Positions 4,873 through 39,111 of a stretch of 64,000 nt of DNA are shown here, piece by piece. Source of the stretch: Halorientalis persicus (GTDB taxonomy: Archaea; Halobacteriota; Halobacteria; Halobacteriales; Haloarculaceae); the NCBI RefSeq assembly GCF_900110215.1, contig NZ_FOCX01000004.1:186001-250000 (forward strand). Reading direction: 5' to 3'. Position 1 is the stretch's first letter; each line of letters starts with the position of its first letter. The translations under genes were made by a program, and so were the position numbers. Below the pieces are notes generated by a model, which was given only the letters and a program-made list of their open reading frames with translations, made no database searches and was not told the origin of the DNA.

Positions 4873-5553
4873 CTACGGTTCCCGAACCGTCGCGCCGTCG
4901 TCGGTCCCGACGTAGATCGCGTCGGCCAGGTCCACGAACAGCCCGTGTTCGAGGACGCCGGGTAGTGCCGAGAGGTCGGCGGCCAGACCCGCAGGCTCGT
5001 CGATCTGTCCGAACGCACAGTCCAGCACGAGGTTCCCGTTGTCGGTGACGACGGGGCCGTCCTTCCGTTCGGCGTCGCGCAGTTCGGGGTCGCCGCCCAA
5101 ATCGCGGACGTGGGTGGCGACCGGTTCGCGGGCGTCGGGGAGGACTTCGACTGGAACTGGGGCCGACAGTCGGTCTGTGAGTTTGGACTCGTCGGCGACG
5201 ATCAGCAGGCGGTCGGCGGCGGCGTCGACGAGCTTCTCGCGGGTGTGGGCCGCCCCGCCGCCCTTGATCAGGTTCCCGTCGGCCACCTGATCGGCCCCGT
5301 CGATGGCGATGTCCGGCGTCGCGTCGTCCAGCGTCGTCAGGGGAACCCCGACCTCGCGGGCGAGTGCCCGCGACTGGTAGGACGTGGGGACGCCCTCGAT
5401 GTCCAGCCCCGAGTCCACCGCCCGGCCGAGTGCCCGGATGGCGTGGGCCGCGGTGCTGCCGGTGCCTAGCCCCACGACCTGCCCGTCGTCGACGGCCTCG
5501 GCGGCGGCCTCGCCGGCGCGTCGCTTCTCCTCGTCGCTCCCGCCGCGTTTCAT
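4873..5553 (-). CDS. rpiA: Ribose-5-phosphate isomerase A
   Basis: A 226-residue RpiA, which interconverts ribose 5-phosphate and ribulose 5-phosphate, supplying ribose for nucleotides in a lineage that lacks a full oxidative pentose pathway. The phosphate-binding loop [10 protein letters not shown] (28-37), the DGADQV motif (85-90) and the catalytic loop [11 protein letters not shown] (97-107, with Glu106 as the likely general base) are all in place, as is DESK (121-124). Start ATG at 5553 begins [15 protein letters not shown], the normal N-terminus. It is divergent from the phosphohexomutase gene, with 85 bases between the starts and a shared promoter area. Confidence 0.95.
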
Positions 5554-5638
5554 GTCCGGGGGCACCGCGTCCGCGGACAAAAAGCCGCGGATTCCTATGA
5601 GGTGGATACTTTTGAGGGTCAGACCCGTCGCCCCGCGT

Positions 5639-6946
5639 ATGTTCGGAACCAGCGGCATCAGGGGCCCGGTGGGTGAGACGGTGACTGCGGATCTGGCGCT
5701 CTCGGTCGGGCGTGCCCTCGGGGTCGACACGGCGCGGGTCGTCGTCGGCCGAGACCCCCGCGAGAGCGGCGAACTGCTCACCGATGCCCTGACGGCCGGC
5801 CTGCGCGAGTCCGGGACCGACGTACTGGATCTGGGCCTGGCGGCGACGCCGACCGTCGCCCGCGCCGTGGCGTGGGAAGAGGCCGACGCCGGTGTCTCCA
5901 TCACCGCCTCGCACAACCCCCCACAGGACAACGGGATCAAGCTCTGGCAGGCCAGCGGCCAGGCCTTCGACGCCGACCGCCGCGAGACCATCAGCCAGCG
6001 CGTCCGCGACGAGGTAGCTGACCTGCGGGACTGGGACGGCCTTGGGGACCGCCGCGAGGTCGACGCCCGCGAGCGCCACGTCCGGGCGCTCGTCGACGCC
6101 GTCGAGATCGCGGATCCGCCGTCGGTGATCGTCGACGTGGGCAACGGGGCCGGCGGCGTCACCGTCGACGCCCTGCAGGAACTGGGGTGTACCGTCGAGA
6201 CGCTCAACGCCCAGCCCGACGGCTCGTTCCCGGGCCGTCCCAGCGAACCGACCGCCGAGAACTGCGCGTCGCTGGCGACGCTCGTGGCCGAGACCGACGC
6301 CGACCTCGGGATCGCCCACGACGGGGACGCGGATCGGATGCGCGCCGTCGCGGGGGACGGCACCTATCTCTCGGGCGACGTGACGCTCGCGCTGTTCGCC
6401 CGGGCGGCCGCCGAGCCCGGCCAGTGCGTCGCCGCACCCGTCGACACGAGTCTGGCTGTCGCCGATCACCTCGCCGAGATCGACGTGACCGTCGAGCGCA
6501 CGAAAGTGGGCGACGTGTACGTGGCCGAGCAGGTCGCCGAGGACGGCGTGGCCTTCGGCGGCGAACCCAGCGGGGCCTGGATCTGGCCCGACGCGACGCT
6601 GTGTCCCGACGGGCCGCTGGCGGCCTGCCGGCTGGTCGAACTCGCCGCCGAACGCCCGCTGGCGGAGCGGGCCGCCGAGGTTGACACCTACCCGATCCGC
6701 CGCGACAGCGTCGACGTCGACGACAAGGCCGCCGTGATGGAGCAGGTGCGGGACCTCGTCACCGAGCGCTACGACGCCGTCGAGACGCTGGACGGGGTGC
6801 GCGTCGATCTGGGCGACGGCTGGTTCCTCCTGCGAGCCAGCGGCACCCAGCCGCTGGTCCGGATCACGGCCGAGGCTCGCGAGGCTGGGTGGGCCGAGAC
6901 GATCTTCGCGGACGCTCGGGACCTGCTGGAAACCGCGAGGAAGTGA
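5639..6946 (+). CDS. glmM: Phosphoglucosamine mutase-like phosphohexomutase
   Basis: A 435-residue phosphohexomutase of the phosphoglucosamine mutase type, with FGTSGIRG at the extreme N-terminus (as in GlmM), the phosphoserine loop [11 protein letters not shown] (Ser91), the magnesium loop DGDADR (228-233), the sugar loop GGEPSG (307-312) and the phosphate loop RASGTQP (399-405). GGEPSG rather than GEESGG separates it from the paralogue at 1500 and supports action on glucosamine phosphates for UDP-N-acetylglucosamine. The start is the ATG just before FGTSG; an in-frame extension upstream overlaps rpiA on the other strand and is not credible. Confidence 0.88.
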
Positions 6947-6984
6947 AGGGGTGGTTCCGGGTGGCGGGCGTCCCGCCGGGGTGG

Positions 6985-7143
6985 CTATCCGCGCCGCGTC
7001 GACCGCGCTTGTCGGACGTCAGCGCCGTCGCGAATCTTGTCCTCACACTGCGGGCAGACCCGTGGTGCTTGGATGCCGTTCGGTGTGAAGACACGTGCAT
7101 ACGCGGCAGTGACAAAAGCGCCGCAGTTCTGACATTCCGGCAT
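6985..7143 (-). CDS. DUF7563-type small zinc-finger protein (copy 2)
   Basis: A 52-residue protein beginning MPECQNCGAFVTAAYARVF. Two CxxC pairs (residues 4/7 and 30/33) form a single zinc site, and a short basic tail follows (QARSTRRG). It belongs to the haloarchaeal DUF7563 family, whose function is unknown. It is closer to the family consensus than the copy at 3332. The gene is convergent with the preceding glmM-like gene. The 255 bases that follow, up to the SDR start, hold no frame that I can support. Confidence 0.85.
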   Translation of the reverse strand: MPECQNCGAFVTAAYARVFTPNGIQAPRVCPQCEDKIRDGADVRQARSTRRG

Positions 7144-7398
7144 ACATCCGATGCATAGGAGGGTGTTGTCTTAACTTTGGGTGGTGGTTGTGACACTCTC
7201 CCGCGCCGACGAACGCCTCGGAAACCGCCACGGACCGCCAGTCCGGTCGCTACCGGAACGGCTTGCCGATACGTCGGCACCGCGATGTGCCGGATCGCAG
7301 TCACCGATCGTCGTGCGCGTCTTCTCACACTGCTGTCACGGGAACGCCGGGGGCGACACCGACATAGCCTTTTGCCGGTGGCGGCCCTACGCCGGGCT

Positions 7399-8097
7399 AT
7401 GGCACGTACTGCCGTCGTCGCTGGTGTTGGGCCCGGACTCGGCGAGTCGATCGCCCGACGATTCGCCGACGAGGGCTGTCAGGTCGCCCTGTTCGCCCGC
7501 TCGAAGTCGTATCTGGACGATCTCGCGGCCGAGCTGGACGAGACCGCCGGCGCTGGGCTCGCGGTCCCGACCGATCTGACCGACCCGGACGCCATCGCCG
7601 CCGGGTTCGCGGCCGTTCGCGATGCCTTCGGCCCCGTCGACATCCTCGTCAACCACGCCAGTGCCGCCTCGTGGGATGGCCTCACCGATATCGCCGCCGA
7701 GTCGTTCGACCGCGCGCTCGCCGTCGGACCGAAAGCCGCGCTCCACTGCTCGCAGGAAGCCGTCGGGGATATGCTGGACGGTGAGGGCGGTACGGTGATC
7801 TTCACCGGCGCGACCACCTCCGTCCGGGGTCGGGAGGGCGCGGTCGGGTTCTCCGCCGCGAAGTTCGCCTGTCGCGGAATGGCCGAGTCGATGGCCCGCG
7901 AACTCGGCCCCGAGGGCGTCCACGTCGCCCACGTCGTCCTCGACGGGATGATCCGACCGCCCGACGGCGAGGTCGAGAACGACGCGGACTACCTCGACCC
8001 CGACGCCATCGCCGACAGCTACTGGCACCTGATCGAGCAGGACCGCGGTGCGTGGACGCTGGAGCTCGATTTGCGACCGCACACCGAGAACTTCTGA
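7399..8097 (+). CDS. SDR-family protein lacking the catalytic tyrosine
   Basis: A 232-residue short-chain dehydrogenase/reductase fold. The cofactor loop is AGVGPGLG (8-15), the NNAG equivalent is VNHAS (84-88) and the strand-5 TGATTS motif is present (136-141). The usual Tyr-x3-Lys is FSAAK, so Phe151 replaces the catalytic tyrosine while Lys155 remains. I recall bacterial relatives of this branch with F/A at the same place, so it may be a subfamily trait; NAD(P) binding is likely but ordinary carbonyl reduction is doubtful. The start at MARTAVVAG removes a long upstream in-frame extension that lacks family character. Confidence 0.8.
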   Translation: MARTAVVAGVGPGLGESIARRFADEGCQVALFARSKSYLDDLAAELDETAGAGLAVPTDLTDPDAIAAGFAAVRDAFGPVDILVNHASAASWDGLTDIAAESFDRALAVGPKAALHCSQEAVGDMLDGEGGTVIFTGATTSVRGREGAVGFSAAKFACRGMAESMARELGPEGVHVAHVVLDGMIRPPDGEVENDADYLDPDAIADSYWHLIEQDRGAWTLELDLRPHTENF

Positions 8098-8100
8098 GGG

Positions 8101-9720
8101 TCAGCGATTCCGGCCGAGTTCCTCGTGGCTGGTCACCCAGTCCGAGGCCGAGATGGCCGAGGCCAGCGAGAGTTCGCCCGCCAGCACCACGCCGGCGGCG
8201 ATCTCGGCGAACTTGTTGACGTTGCCCGCGCCGTCACAGTCCAGCATTTCTAGGGCCTCGTTCTGGGTCGGCAGACCCGTCCCGCCGCCGTAGGTCGCGA
8301 CGATGAGTGAGGGAATGGTGACCGAGACGTGGACCGAGTTGTCTTCGAGCAACGTGGCGTTGACCAGCGCCGCCGACGACTCGGCGACGTTGGCCTCGTC
8401 CTGTCCGGTGGCGATGTACAGCGCCGCCAGCCCGTTGGCCGGGTGCGCACCGTTGGTGTTGGCCCCCGCCAGCATCGACCCGAGGTTGGCGACCTCGCCG
8501 TGGTGGACCAGACTCTCCGGATCGGCTCCGAGGTGGTGCGTGAACACCTCTTCGGGGATGGTGGCCTCCGCAGTCACCCGCTTGCCGCGGGTCATCATGT
8601 CGTTGACCTGGGAGTGTTTCTTGTCCGTCGCGAAGTTTCCCTCCAGATAGAAGTTCTCGACGTAGCCGGGGAACTCGCTGAGGATCCAGTTACAGGCCGC
8701 GAAGGTGGCCTTTCCGACCATGTTCTGGCCGGCGGCGTCCCCGGTCTTGAAGTCGAACCGGAGGAACGCGAGGTTGTTGGTGAGATAGTCCTCGATCTCG
8801 ACCAGTTCGGCGACGCTGGAGGTCTCTTCGGCTTTCTCCCTGACGGTGTCGTAGTGGTCGAACACCCAGTCCCGGAAGTCACGGGCGGTGCGGGCGTCCT
8901 CGAAGACGAACACGGGCGCGCGGTTCATCCGGTCGTCGACCACGGTGGCTTTGACGCCGCCGCTGAGGTTCAGCGCCTTCATCCCGCGGCTGTAGGAGGC
9001 GACGAGGGTTCCTTCGGTGGTGGCCAGCGGGATCGGGTACTCGCCGTCTGCGTGTTCGCCGTTCACCTTGAGCGGGCCAGCCAGCCCCATCGGCATCTGG
9101 GCGACGCCGACGAAGTTCTCGATGTTGCCTTCCAGTTCCTGGGGATCGACGGAGTACTCCGCGATGTGTTCGATGTCGGTGTCGGTCCGCTCGGCGAGAT
9201 ACTCGTGGCGCTCGTCGATAGCGGCCTCGCTGTAGTTGTCGGCTTCGTCCCTGGGGACGCTCGGCACCGTCTCCTCGTCGCGAATGGTGTCGGTGACCGA
9301 CAGCGACAGTGAGCCGAACGGATGGGCCACGAAGTCGATCTCGATGTCGTGGTCGCCGGTCGGGAGTTCCAGCTCCGCGACGGTGACGTACACCGTCCGT
9401 CCCACCGGGAACCCCAGCGGGTCGTCCTCGTCGACCTCGGTGAGCCCGTAGGTTTCTCCCTCCGAGGTTTCGAGGGTCACGTCGCTGGGCATGACCTCGT
9501 CGCCGTTGATCTCCAGCCGTTCGAGGCCGCCGAATTCGGCGTCTTGCAACCTGTTTTTCACCTCGAAGCGAACGCCGTCGTCGGTGTTCGTCAGACTCCC
9601 GTACGTGTAGAGCCGTTTCAGCACCTTCTCGGGCACGTCGAGCGAGACGACGCCGCTCCCGCCGACGAGGTTCGCGTAGAGCCTGTTCAGTATACCGCTG
9701 TCTGGCTTCGGGACGACCAT
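8101..9720 (-). CDS. HMG-CoA reductase homologue with N-terminal beta-domain
   Basis: A 539-residue protein. Residues 180-539 match class I HMG-CoA reductase: ENFVGVAQMPMGLAGPL (201-217), the catalytic glutamate in TTEG (Glu236), DAAGQNMV (328-335), the catalytic lysine in TDKK (365-368), the catalytic aspartate in GQDEANV (Asp441) and a histidine in VTSHEELGRN (His532) aligned with the catalytic SH of the family. The reaction would be reduction of HMG-CoA to mevalonate for archaeal isoprenoid lipids. Residues 1-150 are not part of HMGR and look like a beta-sandwich similar to DUF6379/C-glycoside deglycosidase beta subunits (my recollection of that family's pattern). A usual haloarchaeal HMGR is about 400 residues. 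Start at 9720 is chosen from the TATA box spacing. Confidence 0.78.
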   Translation of the reverse strand: MVVPKPDSGILNRLYANLVGGSGVVSLDVPEKVLKRLYTYGSLTNTDDGVRFEVKNRLQDAEFGGLERLEINGDEVMPSDVTLETSEGETYGLTEVDEDDPLGFPVGRTVYVTVAELELPTGDHDIEIDFVAHPFGSLSLSVTDTIRDEETVPSVPRDEADNYSEAAIDERHEYLAERTDTDIEHIAEYSVDPQELEGNIENFVGVAQMPMGLAGPLKVNGEHADGEYPIPLATTEGTLVASYSRGMKALNLSGGVKATVVDDRMNRAPVFVFEDARTARDFRDWVFDHYDTVREKAEETSSVAELVEIEDYLTNNLAFLRFDFKTGDAAGQNMVGKATFAACNWILSEFPGYVENFYLEGNFATDKKHSQVNDMMTRGKRVTAEATIPEEVFTHHLGADPESLVHHGEVANLGSMLAGANTNGAHPANGLAALYIATGQDEANVAESSAALVNATLLEDNSVHVSVTIPSLIVATYGGGTGLPTQNEALEMLDCDGAGNVNKFAEIAAGVVLAGELSLASAISASDWVTSHEELGRNR

Positions 9721-34593: not shown

Positions 34594-35871
34594 CTAGGTC
34601 CCGTGTTGCCACGAGCCCATGTACTCCGCCTGGGCCTCGCTCAGGTCGTCGAAGGCGACGCCCTCCGCGTCGAGTTTGATCTCCGCGACTTCCCGGTCCA
34701 GATCGTCGGGTACGTCGTGGACGCCGGCGTCGTACGCCTCGCCGGACTCGACGAGCTCGCGGACGCAGACCGCCTGCACGCCGAAGCTCTGGTCCATGAC
34801 CTCGACGGGGTGGCCCAGCGCCACGGGCGTCGCGAGGTTGACGAGGCGCCCCTCCGCCAGCACGTTCAACTCGCGGCCGTCGGGCATGACGTAGGCCTCG
34901 ATACCGTCGCGGGGTTCGGTGACCTCCGCGGCCATCTCCTCCAGTGCGACGAGGTCGATCTCCACGTCGAAGTGGCCGGCGTTGGCCAGCAAGACGCCGT
35001 CCTGCATGACCTCGAAGTCCTCGGCGGTAATCACGTCGCGATTGCCCGTCGTCGTGATGAACACGTCGCCCTCCGTGGCGGCCTCCTGCATCGGCATGAC
35101 CTCGTAGCCCTCCATGTGGGCCTCCAGCGCGCGGCGGGCGTCGACCTCGGTGACGATCACGCGGGCGTTCTGGCCGGCGGCCTTCTTTGCGACACCGCGG
35201 CCGCAGTCTCCGTAGCCGCCGACGACGACGGTCTTGCCGGCGTAGGAGAGGTTCGTCGTCATGGCGATGCTCGCCAGTGCGGACTCGCCGGTGCCGTGGA
35301 CGTTGTCGAACAGCCGTTTCATCGGCGTGTCGTTGACGGCGAAGACGGGGTACTCCAGCGCGCCGTCGTCGTCCATCGCGCGCAGGCGGTGGACGCCGGT
35401 GGTGGTCTCCTCACACCCGCCGACGATGGTGTCGATGAGTTCGGGGTAGTCCTCGTGGATGGCGGCGATGAGGTCCATCCCGTCGTCGACGGTGATGGTC
35501 GGGTCGTGCTCGATGACGGCCTCCATGGCGGCGTAGTAGGCGTCGTCGTCGACGCCGCGCTCGGCGTAGGAGGTGACGTTCTCGTGGGAATCGAGCGCCG
35601 CGGACACGTCGTCGTGGGTCGAGAGTGGGTTACAGCCAGTGATGGCGACCTCGGCACCGCCTTCGGCGAGCAGTTCGGCCAGTACGGCCGTCTTGGCCTC
35701 GACGTGCATCGCCATCCCGATCACCTCGCCCGCGAAGGGCTGGCTCTCGGTGAACTCCTCGCGGAGCGAGGCGAGGATCGGCATATGTTCGCGCGCCCAG
35801 TCCATCTTCCGGCGGCCCTCTTCCCGTGCAGTCTCGGGGTCGTCGAGCCGCTCGCTGATCGGCGCAGTCAT
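34594..35871 (-). CDS. ahcY: S-adenosylhomocysteine hydrolase
   Basis: A 425-residue NAD-dependent AhcY, which splits S-adenosylhomocysteine to adenosine and homocysteine and so keeps methylation going. The NAD-binding VVVGGYGDCGRGVAKKA (215-231), NDTPMKRLFDN (180-190), the N-terminal HVEAKTA (56-62, with His56), and the C-terminal QAEYMGSW end are family features. It lacks the eukaryote-type insert, as archaeal enzymes do. A separate SAH/MTA deaminase lies at 37807, giving a second route. Confidence 0.95.
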   Translation of the reverse strand: MTAPISERLDDPETAREEGRRKMDWAREHMPILASLREEFTESQPFAGEVIGMAMHVEAKTAVLAELLAEGGAEVAITGCNPLSTHDDVSAALDSHENVTSYAERGVDDDAYYAAMEAVIEHDPTITVDDGMDLIAAIHEDYPELIDTIVGGCEETTTGVHRLRAMDDDGALEYPVFAVNDTPMKRLFDNVHGTGESALASIAMTTNLSYAGKTVVVGGYGDCGRGVAKKAAGQNARVIVTEVDARRALEAHMEGYEVMPMQEAATEGDVFITTTGNRDVITAEDFEVMQDGVLLANAGHFDVEIDLVALEEMAAEVTEPRDGIEAYVMPDGRELNVLAEGRLVNLATPVALGHPVEVMDQSFGVQAVCVRELVESGEAYDAGVHDVPDDLDREVAEIKLDAEGVAFDDLSEAQAEYMGSWQHGT

Positions 35872-35985: not shown

Positions 35986-36918
35986 ATGCGAGGCTTCGGT
36001 CGGGGTCGGGGGCAGTCGGAGGTCATCGGGAGCCTCCTGCTCGTCGCGGTCGGCGTCGTCCTGATCGGTGCGGTCGCCGTCCTCGGATTCTCGCTCGCCG
36101 ATGACACGAACCGGGACCCGACGACGGCGTCGCTCTCGTCGTCTGTCTCCGCGGGGAACGTCACCCTCGTCCACACCGCCGGGGACGGTCTGTCGGCCGC
36201 CGAGACGGTCGCGGTCCTGCGTCACAGCGACGACGCGCGGCGCGTCAGGCTGTCGTCGCTCGCCCCAGTCGCTGGCGGTGACGACGACCAGATCACCGCC
36301 GGTGACCGGTACCGGCTCCCCCACGACGTGATCCGGGGCGAACTCGCGGTTACGGTCGTCCACGAGGAAAGCGGTGCGGTCCTGCACACCCGGCAGTTCT
36401 GGATCGCGGACGGCATCGCCGGCGAACTGATCACCGCCGACGCCGACTCGCTCAGTGACTTCCAGGGGAACGTCAACGACCCGTCGGCGACGACGACGAT
36501 CTCGGACGGCGGGCGACGCATCGAAGTGACCGGCAACAAGTGGCAACTGATCGGGAACAACTACACGGTCACCGAGGACACGGTGTTGACCTTCGAGTTC
36601 AGGAGTACGACGGAAGGCGCGATCCACGGCATCGGGTTCCAGAACGCCGGGAGTGGGCAGGACAGCGGCCGGGTCGTCCAGCTCTCGGGCGTCCAGAAAT
36701 GGGGTGTCAACGTCAGCGATTACGGTGGATCGTACTACAAGACCGGCGACGGCTGGACCCGCTACGAAGTCCCCATCGGCGAAGTGTACCGGGACAGGAA
36801 CAACCTCGGCGCCGCCGACTCACTGCTCATCGTCAACGACTGCGATGGGAACGAGGGGATCAGTTGCGGCTCGCACGATTCGGCGTACCGGAACGTCGCC
36901 GTCTCCGAGTCCGACTGA
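35986..36918 (+). CDS. Archaeal pilin-like protein with appended CBM-like domain
   Basis: A 310-residue exported protein. GRGQSEVIGSLLLVAVGVVLI (residues 8-28) is a class III pilin signal: PibD would cut after Gly8 or Gly9, leaving QSEVIG and a hydrophobic assembly helix. Residues 30-155 are a beta-rich pilin-type domain (DUF1628-like). Residues 165-310 differ: EFRSTTEGAIHGIGFQN, VQKWGVNVSDY and DGWTRYEVPIGE repeat a pattern that I recall from beta-sandwich domains next to polysaccharide-degrading enzymes (CBM-like). The domain assignment is inference. It has no pilin-gene neighbours; both flanking genes belong to methyl-group metabolism or surface proteins. Confidence 0.75.
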   Translation: MRGFGRGRGQSEVIGSLLLVAVGVVLIGAVAVLGFSLADDTNRDPTTASLSSSVSAGNVTLVHTAGDGLSAAETVAVLRHSDDARRVRLSSLAPVAGGDDDQITAGDRYRLPHDVIRGELAVTVVHEESGAVLHTRQFWIADGIAGELITADADSLSDFQGNVNDPSATTTISDGGRRIEVTGNKWQLIGNNYTVTEDTVLTFEFRSTTEGAIHGIGFQNAGSGQDSGRVVQLSGVQKWGVNVSDYGGSYYKTGDGWTRYEVPIGEVYRDRNNLGAADSLLIVNDCDGNEGISCGSHDSAYRNVAVSESD

Positions 36919-36963: not shown

Positions 36964-37674
36964 CTATCGACCGTTACCGCCGGCGTTCGCGGGCGGACCG
37001 CCGCCACCGTTACCGCCGCCGTTACCGCCACCGTTACCGCCGGCGTTCGCGGGCGGACCGCCGCCGTCGCCGCCGTCGTCGCCGTCGCTCTCGGTGTCTG
37101 CGTCGTCGTCACGGTCGGGTCCGCGGTCCGCGGGCGGGCCGCGACGGTCGTCGTCACCGTCGGGACCGCGGTCCTCCGGCGGGCCCTGTCGCCTGTCCTC
37201 GCTGGGGCCGCGGTTCTCGGGTGGGCCGCGCTCGCTCGCGTTCGTCTCGTTGCCGCCGGGGCCGGCGTGTGCGGGCGGTCCCGCGTGGTCGGGTGCGTTC
37301 CCGGGGTTGTTCTCCGTGACGAACGCCGCGACCAGTAGCCCGAACGGAGTGCTGGACCCGTTCGTGCTGTTCGTGCTGTTCATCTGGGAACGCGTGTTCT
37401 CGATGAACGCAGACACGAGCTGACCGAACGGGACCCGGGTCTCGTTGGACTCAGTCTCGTTGTCGTCGTCAGTTTCGTTGAGATCGGTTTCGTTGCCGTC
37501 GGCAGTTTCGTTGAGTTCGCTTCCGTTCGTGGCTGTCTCGTTGGTCTCGTCCTGTGCGAGCGCGGCCCCGCTCGACACGGCGGTCGGCGAGCCGGCGGCC
37601 ACGGCCGGCCCGAGCGCCGCGCCGACGAGCAGTGCCACGGACACGAGTGCGAACAGTGTACTTCTCGATTGCAT
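36964..37674 (-). CDS. Secreted low-complexity acidic protein
   Basis: A 236-residue exported protein. Residues 1-27 (MQSRSTLFALVSVALLVGAALGPAVA) are a signal peptide. Then come many N-x-T sequons (NET, NGS, NES), two copies of a PFGxLVxAF unit (VPFGQLVSAF about 80-90, TPFGLLVAAF about 110-120), Pro/Gly/Asp repeats and a C-terminal GGPPANAGGNGGG repeat. No anchor or enzyme motif is visible. I do not recognise a family. The position next to the pilin gene (45 bases from its stop, convergent) suggests a surface role, but this is only context. Confidence 0.7.
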   Translation of the reverse strand: MQSRSTLFALVSVALLVGAALGPAVAAGSPTAVSSGAALAQDETNETATNGSELNETADGNETDLNETDDDNETESNETRVPFGQLVSAFIENTRSQMNSTNSTNGSSTPFGLLVAAFVTENNPGNAPDHAGPPAHAGPGGNETNASERGPPENRGPSEDRRQGPPEDRGPDGDDDRRGPPADRGPDRDDDADTESDGDDGGDGGGPPANAGGNGGGNGGGNGGGGPPANAGGNGR

Positions 37675-37806
37675 CTCACCTGTATCCAGGCGAGAGACCC
37701 GCATAAACCCGGATTCCCGTTCAGTGAATTCACTGCGGTCCAAAACGTTGCTAGAACGGCGAAGAACGTTCAAAAGCACCTCTGGGCGTTTAATTCACAC
37801 GCCAAG

Positions 37807-39111
37807 CTACGATTCGGCGCGGTCGATCAGCGCCTGTGCGCGCTCGCGAGCGTCTGCCAGCACCGCCTGTTCGTCCAGCGTCTGCACCGTCCGATCACGC
37901 ATGAGTACCTGCCCGTCACAGACGGTGTGGCGCACGTCCGACCCGCTGGCGGCGTAGGTGAGGTGGCTCACGAGATCGTGGTCCGGCGTCAGGTGTGGCT
38001 GGTCCAGATCCAGCACCGCCAGATCGGCGTTCGCGCCGGCTTCGAGTCGGCCCGAAGCCAGCCCGAGCGCCTCCGCGCCGCCCTGTGTGGCCATCTCGAC
38101 GACCGCGTCGGCGGCGACCGCGCTGGCGTCGTCGGCCGCCAGTTTGCCGAGCATGGCGGCGTCGCGCATCTCGTCGAACAGCGAGAGGTCGTTGTTGGAG
38201 GCCGCGCCGTCTGTGCCCAGGCCGACCGTCACACCCCGATCTCGCATCGCCTGCACGGGGGCCATCCCGCTGGCGAGTTTCATGTTCGAGGCCGGGCAGT
38301 GGATCACGGCGGTGTCGCGCTCGGCCAGCAACTCGTGTTCGGTCCGATCGGTGTGGACGCCGTGGGCCAGGAAGGAGGTGTCGGCGAGCATCCCGATGTC
38401 GTCGGCGTATTCCAGCGGCCGCTCGTCGTGGTCCGCGACCAGTGGGTCGACCTCGCCGGCGGTCTCGTTGGCGTGGAAGTGGATCGGGATTCCGGCCTCG
38501 CGGGCCTCGGGCACGTACTCCCGGAGGTAGTCCTCGCCGACCGTGGTGAGGCTGTGGGGCATGAACGCCGTCGAGACGCGGCCGTCGGCCGCGCCGTCGT
38601 AGCCCTCGGCGAAGTCCAGGCCGTCCCGCATCTCCTGGTGGGCGGCCTCGTCGTCGTTGCCGACGGTGATCGCGCCGTAGCCGAGCAGTGCGCGCATCCC
38701 CGACTCCTCGACGGCGGCGACGACCTCGGGCATGAAGAAGTACATATCCGCGAAGGCGGTGGTGCCCGACCGGATCATCTCCAGGATACCCAGTCGTGCC
38801 CCCGCTCGCACGTCCTCGGCGGTGAGTTCGGCCTCGACCGGCCAGATGTCCTCCTGGAGCCAGGCGTCCAGCGGTTTGTCGTCGGCGTAGCCCCGCAACA
38901 GCGTCATCGCGACGTGTGTGTGGGCGTTGACCAGCCCAGGGATCACGAGGCTACCCTCGGCGTCGAGACGGTCGTCGGCGCTGGCACGCCCCTCGCCCTC
39001 GGGTTCGACCGCCAGAATCTCGCCGCTCGCCTGGTCGACGAGGACGTCCGCCCGCTCGACGGTGTGGTCGGGGCGGAGGACGCGACCGTCCGCGATTCGC
39101 AGTGTCGTCAT
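37807..39111 (-). CDS. mtaD: SAH/MTA/5'-deoxyadenosine deaminase
   Basis: A 434-residue amidohydrolase of the MtaD/DadD family, which deaminates S-adenosylhomocysteine, methylthioadenosine or 5'-deoxyadenosine. Metal ligands are visible as HTH (His64, His66), HFHANE (His211, His213), AH (His250) and GTDGAASNND (Asp301). Substrate preference within this family varies, so the exact one cannot be told; I would call it SAH/MTA deaminase. In this window it complements AhcY. The 132-base gap before it contains part of the promoter of the neighbouring secreted protein. Confidence 0.88.
   Translation of the reverse strand: MTTLRIADGRVLRPDHTVERADVLVDQASGEILAVEPEGEGRASADDRLDAEGSLVIPGLVNAHTHVAMTLLRGYADDKPLDAWLQEDIWPVEAELTAEDVRAGARLGILEMIRSGTTAFADMYFFMPEVVAAVEESGMRALLGYGAITVGNDDEAAHQEMRDGLDFAEGYDGAADGRVSTAFMPHSLTTVGEDYLREYVPEAREAGIPIHFHANETAGEVDPLVADHDERPLEYADDIGMLADTSFLAHGVHTDRTEHELLAERDTAVIHCPASNMKLASGMAPVQAMRDRGVTVGLGTDGAASNNDLSLFDEMRDAAMLGKLAADDASAVAADAVVEMATQGGAEALGLASGRLEAGANADLAVLDLDQPHLTPDHDLVSHLTYAASGSDVRHTVCDGQVLMRDRTVQTLDEQAVLADARERAQALIDRAES

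Follow-up and report, generated by a model that had tools for sequence, protein, structure and literature searches.

The window analysed here is a 64-kb stretch of the Halorientalis persicus genome. On its plus strand, at positions 35986..36918, lies an open reading frame with an ATG start that encodes a predicted modular type IV pilin of 310 aa, with exactly the boundaries given in the first-pass annotation. The gene is flanked upstream by the divergent S-adenosylhomocysteine hydrolase gene ahcY (34594..35871, minus strand; Pfam AdoHcyase) and downstream by a convergent gene for a secreted low-complexity protein (36964..37779, minus strand), which tblastn found conserved at this locus in other genera, followed by a gene for an mtaD-like amidohydrolase (37807..39111, minus strand; Pfam Amidohydro_1). 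A longer, 974-aa reading in the same frame as the pilin was rejected as antisense read-through over ahcY; alignments with the relatives begin at the ATG at 35986.

Orthologs of the pilin in H. regularis and H. pallida are 86-89% identical and occupy the same locus. The gene order, including the pilin, is shared by H. regularis, H. pallida and H. marina, and Haloarchaeobius and other genera have the same locus with the pilin, either with extra genes or rearranged. In three Halorientalis genomes (G075, G079, G080), ahcY, the secreted gene and mtaD are present and the pilin is absent from this place; the pilin is thus a unit gained or lost at a fixed position. The product of the secreted gene is rich in Asn, Glu, Gly and Pro, and the gene is kept between ahcY and mtaD in Halorientalis and other genera whether the pilin is present or absent. 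Longer homologs of this product (L103, L100) contain weak fn3 or DUF4198-like parts.

Sequence and structural model both indicate that residues 1-141 constitute a normal archaeal type IV pilin. The protein begins with a class III (prepilin) signal peptide, MRGFGRGRG (35986..36012, plus strand), recognized by an R-G-Q-S motif ahead of a hydrophobic stretch, and the prepilin peptidase PibD would be expected to cut before QSEV (MRGFGRGRG^QSEVIG). The cleavage site is followed, in the sequence as well as in the model, by a predicted hydrophobic assembly helix of 32 residues (residues 11-42; 36016..36111, plus strand). The Pilin_N profile (PF07790) scored 37 bits over residues 11-77, above its cut-off of 25.2 bits (E 6.3e-9), in agreement with the pilin signal and hydrophobic helix proposed in the first-pass annotation. 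In the full-length AlphaFold2 model (mean pLDDT 88.2), helix 11-42 is followed by a beta-head reaching to residue 141 and by a separate domain at residues 142-310. The beta-head (residues about 43-141, or about 49-141; 36112..36408, plus strand) was assigned by fold and profile matches to the Haloferax volcanii type IV pilus structure 8fj5: residues 8-140 of the model aligned with it at Z 11.1 and rmsd 5.7 over 124 residues in VIA-align, and a profile built from the relatives retrieved 8fj5 from the PDB with E 9.3e-12 and Natrinema PilA2 with E 6.7e-5. The head is thus predicted to have the fold of an archaeal type IV pilin. The bacterial N-methylation motif IPR012902 is absent, the only models matched up to E 10 being archaeal Pilin_N and DUF72xx pilin-like ones; hence, the protein would work like a modular pilin, yet stands outside the bacterial set.

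The remainder of the protein, residues 142-310 (about 169 residues; 36409..36915, plus strand), is predicted from the structural model and the homologs to be a jelly-roll module of an uncatalogued family. An extra domain had been proposed earlier, as about 145 residues fused directly to the signal and helix. The domain itself is there, but it comprises 169 residues, and the whole beta-head lies between it and the helix, so that it is joined to a complete pilin rather than to a helix. The opposite outcome, a pilin domain running through the whole C-terminus, which had been named beforehand as the one that would overturn the proposal, is ruled out by the structural model.

Because Foldseek alignments of the full-length model crossed both domains with high rmsd, the module was also modeled alone, with pLDDT 91.7 and pTM 0.88. 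The best Foldseek match of this model was the CBM30 structure 1wzx (E 2.3e-5). VIA-align produced a tied group of matches with Z 8.4-9.9, mostly CBMs and glycosidase modules, including the C-terminal module of a GH85 enzyme, CBM30 (Z 9.0-9.2), CBM29, CBM15, CBM86 and CBM70, which lie at Z 9.0-9.9, together with CBM8 and the hyaluronan-binding module 4d0q. Matches from outside the carbohydrate-binding proteins are tied with these at Z 8-10, among them MAM domains such as that of meprin, as well as reelin and the cleaved-adhesin domains of Kgp. The beta-sandwich of CBM-like fold recognized in the first-pass annotation is thereby borne out as a beta-jelly-roll like that of CBM30 and other CBMs, tied with non-CBM jelly-rolls; jelly-roll likeness alone is no proof of sugar binding. 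Another tied match of model residues 141-309 (36406-36912), at Z 8.6, is the 8qpg turret protein from Haloferax tailed virus 1, possibly reflecting no more than the common jelly-roll, and the matches of the module in BFVD were just scattered beta-sandwiches of phage tails and fibers.

At the sequence level, no Pfam, NCBIfam or PHROG model matched residues 142-310, and a PDB sequence search with the C-terminal module, alone or as a profile, gave no match. The comparison with CBM families that the first-pass annotation had called for therefore ends in a match of fold, to CBM30 and others; in Pfam, the window module gave no match to CBM30 (PF21582) or any other CBM model. The sole sequence-level link between the module family and CBMs that passes a cut-off is a bacterial relative with two module copies (L052), which matches Pfam CBM30 over the module with 30.5 vs 27 bits (E 4.1e-7, whole protein). 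Among single module copies, CBM30 was reached by one of 39 members, at best with E 0.0011, and weak CBM_4_9 matches occur in relatives; NCBIfam and PHROGs yielded stray matches only on the same 39 members. Kinship with MAM (PF00629) was rejected, given the lack of a Pfam match and an hhalign probability of 0.8% against five MAM domains taken from the same proteins.

The module alignment reveals a signature motif, G-[E/A]-I-H-G-I-G-F, at residues 211-218 (36616..36639, plus strand), in which G211 and I216 are conserved at 100% and E212 and H214 at 95%, and a D285-x-D287 motif (36838..36846, plus strand) that is invariant (100%). The window protein and two relatives have A at position 212, which is E in 95% of the family, and this substitution may alter binding by the window protein. 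The patterns GIGFQN and WTRYEVPIGE, which had been singled out from the sequence at the outset, fall within the best-conserved stretches of a family found in both archaea and bacteria, and thus are not chance resemblances.

The module was found in 14 of the 146 genomes of the same family as the window genome and, in an alignment search across the phylum in which the first few candidates per genome were scored, in at least four of 393 genomes. By homology, its association with pilins in haloarchaea is uniform: all 17 haloarchaeal carriers examined (window, L004-L016, L032, L048, L105) begin with a pilin start, as the search for haloarchaeal homologs and their neighbors suggested in the first-pass annotation revealed, and the ahcY-mtaD locus is common to several of the genera. 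Pilin_N scored above the cut-off at the carrier gene in at least 10 of the 14 relatives searched, and also in L014, L032 and L048. Most haloarchaeal carriers contain one copy of the module, with two in Halorhabdus-type proteins, a module-PKD-module arrangement in Salinarchaeum laminariae and four PKD domains in one other protein. In another family of the same phylum, a 747-aa protein (L024) has a pilin-like N-terminal helix, as judged by eye, with the module located about 150 residues in.

Outside the archaea, the module is homologous to accessory domains of bacterial exoproteins. More than 40 bacterial loci, from at least six phyla, carry it, and the carriers come from Bacteroidota, Verrucomicrobiota, Planctomycetota, Chloroflexota, Cyanobacteriota, Pseudomonadota and Acidobacteriota. 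Secreted peptidases (S8, M12B, M28, M36, M43 or trypsin-type), often with MAM and fn3 domains, account for 16 of the 31 bacterial carriers scanned; the remainder include multicopper oxidases, surface proteins of RTX or cadherin type, one RHS protein, and a single enzyme of apiosidase type (L073), which is the only glycoside hydrolase-type carrier among the 31. The module is therefore not confined to pili, being found also in bacterial peptidases, oxidases and RTX proteins. A Phycisphaerales subtilase (L051, ORF 5242-9498) contains six tandem copies at residues 83-1098, ahead of its S8 domain. In the maximum-likelihood tree, the haloarchaeal modules mostly form one group, whereas the Halorhabdus first copies and the two Salinarchaeum copies fall on the bacterial side; this placement suggests that the module passed between bacteria and archaea, with the direction and number of the transfers uncertain.

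No pilus machinery or operon is present within the 64-kb window, as the first-pass annotation had noted in calling the gene isolated, but this isolation does not extend to the relatives, because the Salinarchaeum homolog directly follows a cluster of T2SSF and four pilin-like genes (DUF7289/7263/7262/7261). This neighborhood independently ties the homolog to pilus biology. Archaeal pilin genes commonly stand by themselves (PMC4858521), so that the isolation of the window gene is no argument against a role in pili. Homology searches of the whole genome detected the machinery that such a role would call for: 16 Pilin_N places, including the window gene, five genes of PilC type, each on a different contig, and a single prepilin peptidase of the A24 type. 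Four tandem pilin genes elsewhere in the genome (C45:24692-26966) are the strongest Pilin_N matches and are likely to encode the main adhesion pilins.

We infer from these observations that the helix would serve to insert the prepilin, that PibD, the only prepilin peptidase of the genome, would cleave it, and that one of the PilB/PilC-type machines of the genome would build it in as a minor subunit, with the jelly-roll displayed on the pilus, at the tip or on the side. The likely processing, the minor-subunit role and the presentation of the jelly-roll to a ligand are proposed by analogy with PilB and PilC of Streptococcus sanguinis. The ligand of the displayed module would then be a polymer outside the cell, and most likely a glycan belonging to a surface, the matrix or a neighboring cell. 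Judging from the model, the module looks like the built-in sticky head of a surface pilin, and this mechanism as a whole, a modular type IV pilin with a displayed module binding a polymer, probably a glycan, appears to us reasonably probable.

Concerning the ligand, the fold favors sugar, and the company of peptidases in bacteria favors a protein or a mixed matrix; with most bacterial carriers being secreted peptidases, the ligand may be either glycan or protein. A modular pilin whose module binds protein, as matrix or substrate, and which in bacteria would tether secreted peptidases to a proteinaceous substrate, would account for the 16 peptidases among 31 scanned carriers, with their frequent MAM and fn3 domains, and for the presence of the meprin MAM, reelin and Kgp domains among the structural matches. 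However, the best of these matches are mostly sugar-binding, relatives of the module show the CBM30 and weak CBM_4_9 sequence matches, and an apiosidase-type enzyme carries the module too, so we regard specific binding of protein rather than sugar as unlikely. Many jelly-rolls do not bind ligands, and the extra domain could accordingly be a structural or decorating beta-sandwich; given the strong conservation of the signature motif across phyla and the tandem duplication, both unusual for an inert spacer, and given that PKD domains already fill the spacer role in some homologs, this seems highly improbable.

Another alternative concerns the site of action. The protein could be processed by PibD but remain in the membrane or form part of a short pseudopilus and, like a bindosome, capture ligands close to the cell. 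In archaea, large binding proteins with pilin signals have a precedent in the Sulfolobus bindosome, and some adhesion is achieved by membrane-associated pilins on their own (PMC4371748); the solitary position of the window gene and the existence of large tandem forms are compatible with such a role. Against it, the protein retains a complete pilin head with a filament-forming pilin fold, and the Salinarchaeum homolog adjoins a pilus cluster. We therefore consider a membrane-anchored protein somewhat unlikely and prefer the modular pilin with a displayed module. More broadly, the module might found an undescribed, CBM-like family of ligand-binding domains common to bacteria and archaea that haloarchaea use almost solely to provide modular adhesive pilins with a head; we put this proposal forward tentatively.

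Descriptions of modular pilins bearing grafted binding heads have so far come from bacteria, and a search of the open-access literature, with subscription papers outside its scope, retrieved no report of archaeal pilins with carbohydrate-binding domains. The modular-pilin design itself is already known; what is new here is its archaeal form, with an added jelly-roll that belongs to no catalogued family. A set of haloarchaeal pilins sharing one defined, recurring head would extend the design to archaea and supply a concrete candidate adhesin in a cultivable group. As many secreted bacterial enzymes carry this unnamed domain, a ligand found here would annotate those enzymes as well.

The closest known systems differ from the window protein in distinct respects. 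Through residues 8-140, it resembles the PilA-type pilins of Haloferax volcanii (Pilin_N/DUF1628; 8fj5) in signal, helix and beta-head fold, but the solved 8fj5 chain, of 145 aa, ends where the extra 169-residue module starts. That module shares the jelly-roll with CBM30 (1wzx, 2c24) and the related CBM29, CBM15, CBM86 and CBM70 at Z of about 9, in contrast to an identity of about 8-15%, the lack of a match above the cut-off of any CBM model, and carriers that are mostly peptidases. With the sugar-binding proteins of the Sulfolobus bindosome, it has in common a pilin-type signal on a putative binding protein (PMC4371748), a likeness of signal type; the subunits of the bindosome, unlike the window protein, are at least four times the size of a pilin. 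In S. sanguinis PilB (vWA) and PilC (lectin), a module grafted on a pilin mediates adhesion (PMC8179133, PMC9934059). The window protein likewise combines a small pilin module with a C-terminal domain of binding type that is not pilus-specific, and has a predicted adhesive function. It differs from PilB and PilC in having the archaeal Pilin_N instead of IPR012902, a different, uncatalogued module, and a gene that stands alone in the genome, not in a pil operon, with binding only predicted here. By this analogy, the protein is best read as an archaeal counterpart of those bacterial modular pilins whose head is a lectin or vWA module.
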